Part shown: positions 1,382 to 8,062 of the stretch, one piece after another
Layout of the letters: every line of letters begins with the position of its first letter
Position numbering within the stretch: position 1 is the first letter of the stretch
The notes under the pieces: model-generated
Databases searched by the model: none
Told to the model about the DNA's origin: nothing
The model's input: only the letters and a program-made list of their open reading frames with translations
Program-made: the position numbers and the translations under genes
NCBI GenBank assembly: GCA_003557545.1
Contig: PWOD01000030.1
Location: 1 to 9,179 of the forward strand
Length of the DNA: 9,179 nt
Direction of reading: 5' to 3'
DNA from: a bacterium
Lineage (GTDB): Bacteria > T1Sed10-126

Positions 1382-3103
1382 CTACCGCCCGGCCTCAATT
1401 ACACGATTTTCAACCAGGGGGTCCCGTGTAAAAATCCACAACAGATGCCGGGCTCGTGATGCTCCAGTATACCATACAAGATTCTGTTTTTCAGATAGTT
1501 CTGGAATGACCAGTAATACTACATCGGACTCCAGCCCCTTAAATCCCTGTATAGTGTTACACAACAGCTGCTGACGACCCGTAGAACCCTGTTTAACCAC
1601 ACGGTGTTCACAGAGCTTTTTTACCCCGGCCAGCGGACCTTTATTTTTTGATCGCCCGGTTAAAATAACCAGATTGTCAGGATCCAGTTTTTCTTCATAA
1701 ATCAGTTCATGCACAGCCCGCCGCAACTGATCCACCAGTTGTTTATCAGTTTCAGCCAGATCAACTCGCACCTGTTTGCCTGGCGGACCAAACTTTATCT
1801 CATCCTCAACCTCTCCAAGATTCAACGCTACACGAGCTATTTCACGGGTATTCCTCACATTACTCTGCAGCGGATATACTAACCTTTCTGATTCTTCAAT
1901 CCAACCGGTATCATCATGAAAAATTGTCTGGTGGGGGTCATAAAATAGATAGAACCAGCGATTTTCACTATCTTTAAAAAACTCTTCCAGAACAAGAATC
2001 CAATTATCAGCGAAATCCTGGCCTTCATCAATAATTATTGCATCATATCTTCGAGCAATCATTCCCACGGCATCAGCCATAAGTTCAGGAATTTCCTCAC
2101 GAAAAAATCTATCCCACTCTTCGCTGCGCGGATTATCATATTTCTGATTGGGAAACTTAAATTTAATCCCTGCTTCATTTAATATTTCAAGTCCAAAAGA
2201 ATGAAACCTCGAAACCTCAAAAATCCCCTCGTCATAATGCTGTTTAACATGTTCACTGAGGTTTTTGTTATAACAGAGCCAGAGAACCCGCTTACCCTCC
2301 AGCGCCAGCCGGCGAGCTTTTTCCAAAGATAACAAGGTTTTTCCCGAACCGGCCGGACCACTGATGAATGCTTCACGCTGGTTACTTAAAACCTGTAATA
2401 TTCGTTTCTGTTCCTCAGTAGCCCGCAGCAGCTTCTTCTGACTTTTAGTTATATAGTTTCCCAGCCCCTCTATTATCTGAAACTCACGGCGTAAAAACAC
2501 CTCGGTCAACCGCTCCCAGGTAGTTCGATCCAATGGTCCTGTAAAACTCACCTGCTGATCCCAAAAATCAAATAGTTTTTCAAGGCTTTCCTGAATATGA
2601 GCTTTATCATCGTCAAACAGCAGCCGTTCGTAGGGGAGGTTCATATCGGGTAATGACCGGCCCTGCTGTGAGTTCATGTCGGCAAAAAATATTGCCCAAC
2701 CAACCACACCGGAGAATTTTCCCTGGCCTTCAATTCGGGGGTTTTCCTTCAATCTCTCAAGCAAATTATACATCCCGGCTTCAGCCTGAACCGCCGGGCT
2801 TTTATCCAACTCATGCCGGCCGCTATCATTTACTGTATACCAGGTATTGGTTTTTACATCATAACCAATTCCGCCCCCCTTAACCTCAACTATCAGCAAA
2901 CCCTTTTCTGGATGACAAACAAGAAAATCTATCTCACCCCGCAACTGATCACGTTTCGATTGCCCGGGAGCTCTAAACCAGTCTTCTGAATGAAAAATCG
3001 CATATTCATCAGGTAGCTCCTTTTCAAGCAGCTCAAACACTACCCGTTCCGCCGAACTATTATGAAAATCAGTATATTCTTTCGAAGGATACATACGGGC
3101 CAT
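1382..3103 (-). CDS. NERD-domain nuclease / superfamily 1 helicase fusion
   Basis: Predicted cytoplasmic DNA-processing enzyme joining an N-terminal nuclease-related (NERD) domain to a UvrD/Rep-like helicase. Numbering is from the farthest upstream start (GTG, 3145). NERD: AER at 32-34, GEID at 70-73 and EVK at 87-89, the restriction-endonuclease-like acid/Lys set. Helicase: Walker A GPAGSGKT (263-270), Walker B DEGQD (373-377), YDPHQ motif III (402-406), SNVRN motif IV (428-432), NTIQGFKGLE motif V (530-539) and GASRAR motif VI (561-566). All motifs needed for activity appear intact. I prefer the ATG at 3103 (573 residues) because the protein then begins MARMYPS, like many NERD helicases I recall. 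The GTG at 3145 has no ribosome binding site and is directly preceded by a stop; the ATG has only a weak GGAAAG. It lies downstream of the lipoprotein gene, apparently in the same transcript. The biological role of such fusions is mostly unknown; DNA repair or phage defence are both possible. Confidence 0.9.
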   Translation of the reverse strand: MARMYPSKEYTDFHNSSAERVVFELLEKELPDEYAIFHSEDWFRAPGQSKRDQLRGEIDFLVCHPEKGLLIVEVKGGGIGYDVKTNTWYTVNDSGRHELDKSPAVQAEAGMYNLLERLKENPRIEGQGKFSGVVGWAIFFADMNSQQGRSLPDMNLPYERLLFDDDKAHIQESLEKLFDFWDQQVSFTGPLDRTTWERLTEVFLRREFQIIEGLGNYITKSQKKLLRATEEQKRILQVLSNQREAFISGPAGSGKTLLSLEKARRLALEGKRVLWLCYNKNLSEHVKQHYDEGIFEVSRFHSFGLEILNEAGIKFKFPNQKYDNPRSEEWDRFFREEIPELMADAVGMIARRYDAIIIDEGQDFADNWILVLEEFFKDSENRWFYLFYDPHQTIFHDDTGWIEESERLVYPLQSNVRNTREIARVALNLGEVEDEIKFGPPGKQVRVDLAETDKQLVDQLRRAVHELIYEEKLDPDNLVILTGRSKNKGPLAGVKKLCEHRVVKQGSTGRQQLLCNTIQGFKGLESDVVLLVIPELSEKQNLVWYTGASRARHLLWIFTRDPLVENRVIEAGR

Positions 3104-3162
3104 AAAGCTTTCCACTTCCTCGCCATTTTTACTATTGATCTCCACTTAAGCTGCGCTTAACT

Positions 3163-3494: not shown

Positions 3495-5678
3495 TTAAAA
3501 ATCATCATGCACAATCTCACATTCTGGCAGCGCTTTCAAAAACTTCTGACCGTACCCTTTTCTCAGTATCCGGCTATCAAGAATCGTTACCTCACCCTGA
3601 TCGCTCCGGGTTCTTATCAACCGGCCAAACCCCTGTTTTAAATTCAATACAGCCTCCGGTAAAAAATAGCTGCTAAAGGGATTTTTACCCTGTTTTTTAT
3701 ACTGTTCGGCTGTGGCCTCGACCAGAGGATCCTTGGGATTAGGGAAGGGTAACCGGGTTATTATTACCCGTTTCAAACTTTCTCCCCTGACATCTATCCC
3801 TTCCCAGAAGGAGGCTGTACCAAATAATATGGCCGGCTGCCGGCGCTTGAATCGTTCCAGCATCTGATCGCGCGAAAATCTTCCCCCCTGAATCAAAACC
3901 TCAACTTTCTGCTCCTTGAGTTGACCACGCAATGTTTCCACTACCCGATTGAGGTCCTTATAATTGGTAAACAAAACAATTGTTCGACCCGGCTGTTTTT
4001 CCACATAATGTTTTTCAAAATACTGTCGCAACCAACTGATTAACTCAGTCAGATACTGCCGTTTATTAACGTTAGGTGGTGTGATTCCCAAAACCAATCG
4101 TAACTTTACCTGCTCCTTGTAGTTGAACGGATGGCCCAGCTGCAAAGTTTGCGCTCCCCGCAGCCCCAGCCGCTGCATTTCATAGGCAAACGGCATCTCC
4201 CCCGGAGTGGTTAGAGTAGCCGAGGTCAAGATCGCCGAATAGAGCGGCTCAAATAAAATCTGGTAAAGTTCCTTATCTACAGCCACCGGGGATGAACTTA
4301 ACTCAACATTATCCCGATAAGAAGAGGGTTCAATCCAGTAAACCTGATCTTCAAAGCCCTGTGATAAAAACATCTCTAACCCCTCATCCAGCTCCCTTAT
4401 TCGCTCAATAATCATTTTCAGCTCTTGCTGCTGATACTCATCGAACTCTGCTCTATCTAATAGTTTTTTGAGTTCATTTGACAAACGTTTCAGACCTGGC
4501 GACAGACTATTTTTCACAATCTCCAGTTCCCTGACCCGCAGCGAGTAACCGTCAGTTGATCTTCCTCTTACAAACTTTCTTATCTCAGCAAAAAATTCGC
4601 TTGCCTGACTCTTCAACCTGATAACTGTTTCGGCCAGATCCTCGGCTCCCCAATATTTCAACAAACCGCCGGTTTTTTTCTTATTCCACAGATCATTACA
4701 GAGGTAAATAAACTGTAAATAACTCAGTTTTAAACCCAGAGAATTTTTGGCAACCCTTTCTAAATGATGTGCTTCATCACAAATAACCGCCCCATATTCC
4801 GGCAGAACCCCAACCTCAGAATTATTTCTTAACACCAGGTCAGATAACAATAAATGATGATTAACAAGGATTATTTCAGAGTCATAAAGCATCTGGCGGG
4901 CATCAGCATAAAAACATCTTTTTTTACTTTTTAAACAGTTACATAAGCCACGCTGAGCATTAACTTTTTCCCAGACCTCAGGACTTATCTTCCGGTCCAG
5001 CTCACTACGGGTACCAAGTTTCGTCGTCCTCGCCCAGTTTTCCAGGTACTGCAGCTGCTGATTAGCTCGATCATCGGAAAACAGCAGCTGTTGTTGGCCA
5101 CAAGCGATTTTTAACCGTTCCGGGCAAAGATAGTTGTTCCGACCCTTAAAAATCGTATAACCGATCTCCCCATCGACTACCTGAGCCGCCCTCGGTAGAT
5201 CACTGCGATACAACTGATCCTGAAGGTTTATTGTATTTGTGCTGATTACAACCGGTGCCTCGACCTCACGTGCAAACTCAATCGCCGGAATCAGGTAAGC
5301 CAGTGATTTTCCCGTTCCAGTCCCCGCCTCCACCATCAGATGATGACCTTGTTTCAGGGCAGAGCTAACCGCTGAAGCCATCTTTTCCTGGTGGCTCCTA
5401 TACATAAAACCCTTTAAATGGGTTTTTAATTTACCACCATCACCGTAGATTTTTTTGGCATCAAAACTGTAGTTTGATATATCCAGTTTATCTTTCTCTA
5501 ACAAACCAATCTCTCCCGTCTCATCTATCCCCCGACCAATCCAGCTAATTTTTTCTGCTACAAACCGATCAAACAAAATTTTACTCTGGCCAGATACAAT
5601 CCGACTCAGACTACTGGCTGATAGAGCACGAGAAGATGACAACTGAAAACTTTTAATGTCACCCCTGTAGACAGCCAT
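3495..5678 (-). CDS. dinG: DinG/XPD-family iron-sulfur ATP-dependent DNA helicase
   Basis: 5'-3' superfamily 2 helicase of the DinG/YoaA/XPD group, which unwinds replication- or repair-associated DNA structures. The 727 residues show Walker A EAGTGTGKS (117-125), four Cys spaced as in the 4Fe-4S domain (C185, C246, C248, C255), Walker B DEAH (301-304), motif III SAT (486-488), motif V TASFWEGIDV (621-630) and motif VI QGFGRLIR (682-689). All catalytic and cluster residues seem present. The first 90 residues before RSHQEKM are not recognised and contain no DnaQ-type exonuclease motif, so this is the exonuclease-less type, nearer to YoaA than to the longer Bacillus DinG. The ATG at 5678 is the only ATG before residue 92 and an in-frame stop lies 15 bases upstream, but the ribosome binding site is poor (GATGGA touching the ATG), suggesting weak translation. 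Divergent from the MATE gene. Whether it belongs to dinG or yoaA proper is uncertain. Confidence 0.92.
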   Translation of the reverse strand: MAVYRGDIKSFQLSSSRALSASSLSRIVSGQSKILFDRFVAEKISWIGRGIDETGEIGLLEKDKLDISNYSFDAKKIYGDGGKLKTHLKGFMYRSHQEKMASAVSSALKQGHHLMVEAGTGTGKSLAYLIPAIEFAREVEAPVVISTNTINLQDQLYRSDLPRAAQVVDGEIGYTIFKGRNNYLCPERLKIACGQQQLLFSDDRANQQLQYLENWARTTKLGTRSELDRKISPEVWEKVNAQRGLCNCLKSKKRCFYADARQMLYDSEIILVNHHLLLSDLVLRNNSEVGVLPEYGAVICDEAHHLERVAKNSLGLKLSYLQFIYLCNDLWNKKKTGGLLKYWGAEDLAETVIRLKSQASEFFAEIRKFVRGRSTDGYSLRVRELEIVKNSLSPGLKRLSNELKKLLDRAEFDEYQQQELKMIIERIRELDEGLEMFLSQGFEDQVYWIEPSSYRDNVELSSSPVAVDKELYQILFEPLYSAILTSATLTTPGEMPFAYEMQRLGLRGAQTLQLGHPFNYKEQVKLRLVLGITPPNVNKRQYLTELISWLRQYFEKHYVEKQPGRTIVLFTNYKDLNRVVETLRGQLKEQKVEVLIQGGRFSRDQMLERFKRRQPAILFGTASFWEGIDVRGESLKRVIITRLPFPNPKDPLVEATAEQYKKQGKNPFSSYFLPEAVLNLKQGFGRLIRTRSDQGEVTILDSRILRKGYGQKFLKALPECEIVHDDF

Positions 5679-7255: not shown

Positions 7256-7567
7256 CTATTCAACCAAATCCCAGGCCGGACCAACCCCGGGCTCGCTATT
7301 ATGTGTCCACCATTTGGCCATAAATTGCTGACCATTATGCCAGACAGTTTCTCCTGCCTGGTATTCATTAAAATTTCGCCATTCATCGGTCAACTCCTGC
7401 CAGGGACTATCAAGCTCACCCGGCACCTGCTGCTGGTCAGCATAATTACGTGCCTCATATACAGCACCTTGATAAAGGACGGTATCCCCACCATCATATT
7501 TATTAAAATCCCGCCATTCTTCAGTTATTTCCTGCCACGGGCTGCTCATCAAACCTGGTTCATCACC
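7256..7567 (-). pseudogene. CBM5/12 (chitin-binding) modules after in-frame TAG; continuation of the pilin frame
   Basis: This is the same reading frame as the pilin, resuming directly after TAG (7570-7568). It starts GDEPG, the normal continuation of the chitin-binding motif, then holds two full 45-residue modules (codons 122-166 and 167-206 of the joint frame) before a final TAG. Each module shows the family pattern W-x-x-x-x-Y-x-x-G-[DE]-T-V-x-x-x-G-x-x-[YF]-x-A. No frameshift or further stop has accumulated and the coding pattern is intact, so damage, if any, is recent. Internal start options (TTG 7552, ATG 7549) have only weak AGGT before them and the peptide would lack any signal for export. 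It is therefore either the dead tail of a pseudogene, or is made by stop read-through. Confidence 0.6.
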
Positions 7568-7648
7568 CTACGTCCAATATCTGGCCTCAAACAGTTTCCC
7601 ATCATGAACAACCCGATCACCACCCAGATAAACCTGCCCCAGCTTCCA
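7379..7648 (-). repeat. Tandem 135-base repeats encoding chitin-binding modules 1 and 2
   Basis: Codons 77-121 (7648-7514) and 122-166 (7513-7379) of the joint frame are two successive units of 45 codons; a third, slightly shorter unit follows at 7378-7256. Units 1 and 2 end in closely similar strings, SPWQE-[IL]-T-[ED]-EW, at codons 112-121 and 157-166, and DNA identity is visible around CCGTGGCAGGA / CCCTGGCAGGA. This shows expansion by duplication of one module. Confidence 0.8.
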
Positions 7649-7876
7649 GGCTGGCCCGCTCGGTTCCGAAGGCGAATCACCATTTCCAGTATCGCCACTT
7701 TCCCCTTCAGCAGCTATGTCACGAAAGCTAACACGATTCAGGTCACCCATTTCAAACACTGATAAAACACCTGGCCCCATCAATACAACTGCTGAAATAA
7801 CCAGGAGCCCAATCAGCCCAATCAACATTCCATATTCAACTAATCCCTGTCCATCCTGCTTTTTGATCAGTTCCAT
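7568..7876 (-). CDS. Flp/Tad-type pilin with C-terminal chitin-binding module, cut by in-frame TAG
   Basis: Secreted pilin-like protein of 102 residues up to the TAG. Leader MELIKKQDG (1-9) is followed by the predicted prepilin-peptidase site before Q10. Glu14 and Tyr15 then stand at +5 and +6 of the mature chain, as in Flp pilins, and a hydrophobic helix (16-41) follows. After the short ectodomain comes a Gly/Ser/Pro/acidic linker (57-75) and the start of a CBM5/12 module (77 onward: W77, GGD 85-87, F96-E-A, Y100-W101-T102). The frame stops at codon 103, TAG, exactly where chitinase modules read WTQGDEPG, so a CAG-to-TAG change is the simplest origin. ATG 7876 is preferred over GTG 7888 because AAAGGTGG lies 8 bases upstream. 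No other Tad pilus genes are in the window. Intended role: probably surface adhesion to chitin or similar polysaccharide. Confidence 0.8.
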   Translation of the reverse strand: MELIKKQDGQGLVEYGMLIGLIGLLVISAVVLMGPGVLSVFEMGDLNRVSFRDIAAEGESGDTGNGDSPSEPSGPAWKLGQVYLGGDRVVHDGKLFEARYWT

Positions 7877-8062
7877 AAATTCCACCACCTTTTTTTAACC
7901 CCCTACAGATAGAACCCTACAACCAAATCTAGTAATCTCTTCAGATAGCTTTTAGCAACCCTGGTAAACTTTCAAAACTACGTAACCAGCACCAAAAACA
8001 ACGGTGATCAAGGATTTTCCGAATAATCTACTACTCAGACCAACCACTCCGACCTCTATACC

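Follow-up and report, generated by a model that had tools for sequence, protein, structure and literature searches.

Organization of the pilin-array gene

The DNA analyzed here (the window) is a stretch of 9,179 nt from contig PWOD01000030.1 of assembly GCA_003557545.1 (T1Sed10-126, an uncultured bacterium). On its minus strand, positions 7876 (ATG) to 7256 form a single reading frame with one internal TAG, giving a product of 102 aa up to that stop or 206 aa when it is read through. The frame encodes a Flp-type prepilin followed by a linker and three carbohydrate-binding modules of the CBM5/12 family (Table 1). A GTG at 7888 offers an alternative start; the ATG at 7876 was taken as the start because a good ribosome-binding site (AAAGGTGGTGG) lies directly 5′ of it. 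Its neighbors are a MATE transporter gene and a gene for a small membrane protein; it stands by itself, outside the tad cluster of the genome, and a promoter and terminator scan identified no signal beyond chance. An earlier note, made from the sequence, had treated 7256 to 7876 as a single frame; one minus-strand frame was indeed found, but the TAG at 7570 to 7568 had gone unmentioned, the wording "joint frame" hinting that two frames had been seen. Elsewhere in the window, a protein combining a NERD nuclease domain and a UvrD-like helicase part (1382 to 3145, minus strand) adjoins a DinG/Rad3-like helicase (3495 to 5678).

Table 1. Coordinates of the pilin-array gene in the window and of two array pilins at other loci (L070 and L071, own numbering)
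Feature	Position	Strand	Basis or remarks
Open part as sequenced: Flp-type prepilin, linker and first ~60% of module 1	7571..7876	-	102 aa from ATG; AGGTGG ribosome-binding-like site upstream
Class III leader peptide MELIKKQDG, predicted cut G/QGLVEY (E+5, Y+6)	7850..7876	-	Sequence; motif definition from PMC3244431
Mature Flp N-terminal hydrophobic helix QGLVEYGMLIGLIGLLVISAVVLMGPGVLSVFE	7751..7849	-	Flp profile, AF2 helix, likeness to the genome's own Flp
Gly/Ser/Pro linker MGDLNRVSFRDIAAEGESGDTGNGDSPSEPSG, ~32 residues	7655..7750	-	Sequence
CBM5/12 module 1, 44 residues, holds in-frame TAG	7523..7654	-	Pfam CBM_5_12; module profile 56 bits
In-frame TAG stop	7568..7570	-	Relatives and solved chitinases: Q, K or H here
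CBM5/12 module 2, 45 residues	7388..7522	-	Pfam CBM_5_12; module profile 66 bits
CBM5/12 module 3, 43 residues, KWWT aromatic pair	7259..7387	-	Pfam CBM_5_12; module profile 69 bits
Terminal TAG stop of the frame	7256..7258	-	Sequence
Array pilin L070	1342-2316	-	Inside pil operon
Array pilin L071	877-2175	+	Inside pil operon

The N-terminal half is a Flp-type pilin

The leader and the residues that follow it (MELIKKQDG|QGLVEYGMLIG) place Glu at +5 and Tyr at +6 of the predicted mature protein and match the rule for Flp pilins, defined as E or D at +5, Y at +6 and a leader ending in Gly (PMC3244431); the hydrophobic Flp motif of ~20 residues is also present. The Pfam profile Flp_Fap (PF04964) scored the pilin part at 12.7 bits, under its gathering cut-off of 32.2. 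A purpose-built profile of eight Flp pilins from other loci, including that of the genome's own tad cluster, matched residues 3 to 42 with 52 bits (E value, 1.6e−13, a somewhat favorable figure because the sequences in the profile were retrieved using the window query). The same profile matched none of 2,000 shuffles and no other frame of the window. Direct comparison, which is independent of the profile, gave 43% identity (E value, 2e−8) to the tad-cluster Flp, itself above the Pfam Flp cut-off. In a single-sequence AF2 model, a helix at residues 10 to 42 was the sole confident part, the remainder being too poor for fold searches. Both to the stop and through it, the protein exceeds the size of a typical Flp pilin (~60 aa). 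The class III leader with its E+5/Y+6 pair, the hydrophobic helix and the Gly/Ser/Pro linker that the earlier note had described were thus borne out by the sequence, the Flp profile and the AF2 helix.

Three CBM5/12 modules follow the linker

With the TAG read through, Pfam CBM_5_12 (PF02839) matched three stretches (77.4 bits; E value, 8.3e−22), and the part after the internal stop scored 42.7 bits by itself, above the gathering score. A module profile built solely from the arrays of other genomes, with the window excluded, gave 176 bits against the joint frame (individual modules in Table 1), and no shuffle exceeded 7 bits. The modules have the length of ~45 residues, the terminal Trp and the PG motif of the family. 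Three tandem modules, as the earlier note had proposed, were therefore confirmed, with 43 to 45 residues each. Of the profile checks that it had suggested, PF02839 matched and so did the Flp profile built here, but PF04964 itself remained below its cut-off.

Using phmmer, the array matched the binding domain of Streptomyces griseus chitinase C (PDB 2d49) with an E value of 2.5e−6, and its solved relatives are chitinase binding domains. Chitinase C has one module per ~45 residues and shares the module family and the aromatic pair of KWWTQ, the pairs in modules 1, 2 and 3 of the window being YW, NY and WW, respectively. Trp59 and Trp60 of this enzyme matter for chitin binding (Itoh 2006, as cited in PMC5328894), and presumably correspond to the WW of KWWTQ. 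Chitinase modules serve an enzyme, whereas the protein of the window has no catalytic domain and is carried by a pilin. Judged by its CBM5/12 family alone, chitin or a related polysaccharide would be the predicted ligand.

An in-frame TAG interrupts module 1

The internal TAG lies inside module 1, in the context ARYWT*GDEPG (asterisk, stop codon). At this site, solved chitinases carry Q or K (WTQG and WTKG), as do the modules of the closest relatives (NWTQNEKPG and YWTKNQQPG), and module 3 of the window carries H. Under translation table 11, the frame gives the 102-aa pilin with ~60% of module 1, followed by 103 stop-free codons holding modules 2 and 3; these codons stayed open in only 28 of 20,000 base shuffles, and GC3 was equal before and after the TAG. 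Because the downstream codons are open and GC3 is unchanged, the array was part of one protein until very recently or still is. The TAG most likely arose by a recent nonsense mutation or through an error in the consensus.

Were the TAG real and fixed, the gene would be decaying and the array would be a relic; the product would be no more than a short Flp-like pilin whose tail has no use, if any protein is made at all. We regard this as a serious possibility that falls short of probable. It fits an in-frame stop in a genome where neither a suppressor tRNA nor PylS was found, and a family search of that genome identified no other CBM5/12 protein above cut-off and hence no sign of an active chitin lifestyle. 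However, with 103 downstream codons open, GC3 unchanged and strong modules, any decay must be very recent, and a consensus error would give the same picture. If such a consensus or assembly error was made, the true genome would carry a sense codon, most simply for Q or K, and encode the full 206-aa protein. A single base separates TAG from CAG and AAG, the codons for the residues of relatives and solved structures, the rest of the frame is intact, and the assembly is in 239 contigs; the other genes of the window, however, show no such break. An error is accordingly quite conceivable here, without being what we would expect outright.

Partial readthrough or recoding of the TAG, by which one gene would yield both a short pilin and a long, adhesin-bearing one, is improbable. 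The frame is open with the right modules on either side of the TAG, and a filament would be well served by a blend of subunits with and without the array. Against this, the source assembly (2.15 Mb, 91.9% complete), which was searched by family, contained no PylS over cut-off, and none of the 40 tRNAs found in it had a CUA anticodon, on which grounds pyrrolysine insertion or TAG recoding was rejected. TAG also terminates three other genes of the window. The site needs no unusual residue, and the short form retains half a module, which would be needless in a designed short form.

It is more improbable still, to the point of being almost negligible, that there are two genes here, one for a pilin and one for a CBM protein that starts from a TTG or ATG after the stop. 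The ORF finder does report 7256 to 7552 as a separate ORF, but the boundary splits a single module, the modules of the downstream ORF would remain cytosolic for want of a signal peptide, and the relatives described below keep pilin and array in a single frame. The description that fits the gene best is that of an interrupted modular Flp-type pilin, backed by a wider and apparently undescribed set of minor pilins with CBM5/12 arrays.

Pilus genes elsewhere in the source genome

Contig C86 carries a partial tad cluster, in which an ordinary Flp is followed by two TadE-like genes, RcpC/CpaB, a secretin and a CpaE-like ATPase (TadA, TadB and TadC were outside the search). A prepilin peptidase with both A24 domains, and so of the full PilD type rather than the truncated TadV type, adjoins aro-like genes on contig C213. 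Together, the partial tad cluster with its ordinary Flp and the prepilin peptidase imply that the pilin of the window could be processed and possibly assembled; the tad genes and the peptidase that the earlier note had proposed looking for were both located.

The CpaE-like protein of C86 (L009, 364 to 2022, minus strand) carries an RDD membrane domain (PF06271; E value, 1.5e−19) as a C-terminal fusion, to our knowledge an unusual arrangement. The TadE-like proteins of the same cluster (L009, 5086 to 6874, minus strand) are large (272 and 345 aa) and contain Asp-rich stretches that resemble calcium loops (for example, DLDRDGLVDSW). Contig C164 encodes a second Flp-like prepilin that stands alone (L015, 1279 to 1668, plus strand), of 129 aa (ERGQVMLEYS…, with E+5, Y+6 and a long C-terminal tail). 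Its tail was considered as a CBM5/12-like candidate, but it scored below cut-off (14.0 bits; E value, 0.052) and the module profile gave no support, so the protein was not counted as evidence.

Related arrays on type IV pilins

In a search of 398 genomes of another phylum, strong array matches were identified in four (L058 to L061), with 39 to 49% identity to the array of the window where aligned. PF07963 exceeded its cut-off in L058 (261 aa) and L060 (321 aa), both of them type IV prepilins bearing three or four modules, and L061 (507 aa) combines a PilX-like N terminus (recognized by eye; there was no profile match) with modules and a Big_2 domain. In the fourth, L059 (1495 to 2478, minus strand), the carrier of the same kind of array is exported but is not a pilin; a signal peptidase and a TasA/camelysin-looking protein are encoded next to it, a hint that other surface fibers may be decorated in this way as well. 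Five further arrays on pilins or pilin-like proteins (L070 to L074) came from 82 searched genomes of one class. L058, L060, L071 and L072 are type IV prepilins with a GF[ST]xxE leader, and L061, L070, L073 and L074 are PilX-like. These eight pilin-borne arrays comprise 3 to 5 tandem CBM5/12 modules, accompanied in some by a Big_2 domain, share the array type PWQE[LI]TDEWRxFNxY…, and have no internal stops.

By eye, the surroundings of L070 and L071 include pilus ATPase-like and PilC-like genes, FimT/PilV/PilW/PilX-like minor pilins and PilN/M-like genes; Pfam confirmed N_methyl and PilN for three genes of L090. Because eight type IV pilins or pilin-like proteins bear uninterrupted related arrays, pilins with CBM5/12 arrays are a recurrent design, and no description of CBM5/12-array minor pilins was found in the literature searched. 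All eight carry the same kind of array as the window gene and differ from it in their type IVa-like or PilX-like, rather than Flp, carriers and in their uninterrupted frames.

The homologue search proposed in the earlier note thus recovered related arrays on these eight type IV or PilX-like pilins, but no second Flp carrier in the sets scanned. Neither a protein scan nor a DNA pattern identified a Flp-CBM joint in the genome contigs and viral contigs collections. The pattern allowed ~50 to 70 residues between EY and the first module Trp, and because it spans one range of linker lengths and codon choices, absence of the joint elsewhere is not proven. No record of the plasmid collection covered 80% of the query. 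An origin in a phage tail was considered and dropped, as the 19 records matched in the phage collection gave CBM-only matches, with coverage of the query below 80% in each. Across the 398 genomes, Flp-side and CBM-side matches lay at separate places and were never joined; where Flp matches with long open frames were reread, the surplus length was 5′ of the leader and the pilins ended shortly after the helix. Flp as the carrier of a CBM5/12 array was found only in the source genome among the sets scanned, in which its phylum is represented by two genomes.

The last module of the window array resembles the last modules of the other arrays, as if whole arrays had been inherited or moved. A bolder proposal, to which we give little credence, is that CBM5/12 arrays are a mobile polysaccharide grip shared across unrelated pilus classes, moved here onto a Tad Flp, with the TAG partly read through to yield bare and chitin-gripping subunits.

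Proposed function and comparison with known systems

We consider it reasonably probable that a modular Flp-type pilin with a three-module CBM5/12 polysaccharide-binding array is, or was until recently, the product of this gene. By analogy with known modular pilins and Tad tips, this pilin would most likely act as a minor polysaccharide adhesin displayed at the tip of a Tad pilus. The prepilin peptidase would cut the leader after the Gly, and the helix would pack into the Tad filament, the subunit being present in low abundance and probably located at the tip or close to it; with 130 extra residues, the array subunit is expected to be rare or tip located rather than the main subunit. The flexible linker would keep the array outside the fiber, where the three modules could jointly grip chitin or a similar beta-1,4 polysaccharide with added avidity, and retraction or anchoring would keep the cell on the particle. 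As presently assembled, the sequence would give a short pilin without a working array; only if the in-frame TAG is an error or undergoes readthrough would the adhesin have its array. Several observations count against the adhesin reading, namely that the array is out of translation as assembled, that the gene lies apart from the tad cluster, that the curated Flp_Fap profile misses it, that the prepilin peptidase is of the PilD rather than the TadV type and that the sets scanned contain no closer relative of the whole Flp-array protein.

Binding modules grafted onto pilins are known from the modular type IV pilins PilB and PilC of Streptococcus sanguinis, where they are probably located at pilus tips (PMC8179133, PMC9934059), and the PilC module binds glycans (PMC9934059). 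Like the window gene, PilB and PilC combine a pilin part bearing a class III signal peptide with a short linker and a binding module, tip display being likely for PilB and PilC and predicted for the window protein. This architecture (class III pilin, linker and functional module) is present in the joint frame, interrupted by the TAG as assembled. In view of these pilins and of the related arrays on type IV minor pilins, the remark in the earlier note that no described family was known went too far. The modular pilins of S. sanguinis and of a survey of 264 architectures have an IPR012902 (GFxxxE) leader, whereas the window gene has a short Flp/Tad carrier and a tandem CBM5/12 array; because the survey was keyed to that leader, modules borne on Flp would have escaped it. 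The window gene indicates that Tad pilins can be modular too and, with the array minor pilins found elsewhere, points to a recurrent way of making a retractable fiber a polysaccharide grip.

Tad tips are interchangeable and are customized by subunits with extra domains (TadE/F/G), as in the Kil tips of Myxococcus xanthus (PMC12075869). There, the extra domains sit on TadG/KilN-like minor pilins and the Flp-type KilK and KilO are bare adapters, whereas in the window the domains sit on the Flp itself. Adherence to insoluble polysaccharide is likewise a property of the cellulose-binding type IV pilus of Ruminococcus albus, as cited in PMC3244431, where the passage on this pilus does not describe it as a Flp pilin with CBM5/12 modules. 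An array pilin would offer Flp/Tad pili a direct molecular route onto chitin particles. In Jeongeupia, the five transcripts induced most significantly on chitin include those of two Flp pilin genes, ranked second and third (PMC10455584), which, although from another organism, fits a role for Flp on this substrate.
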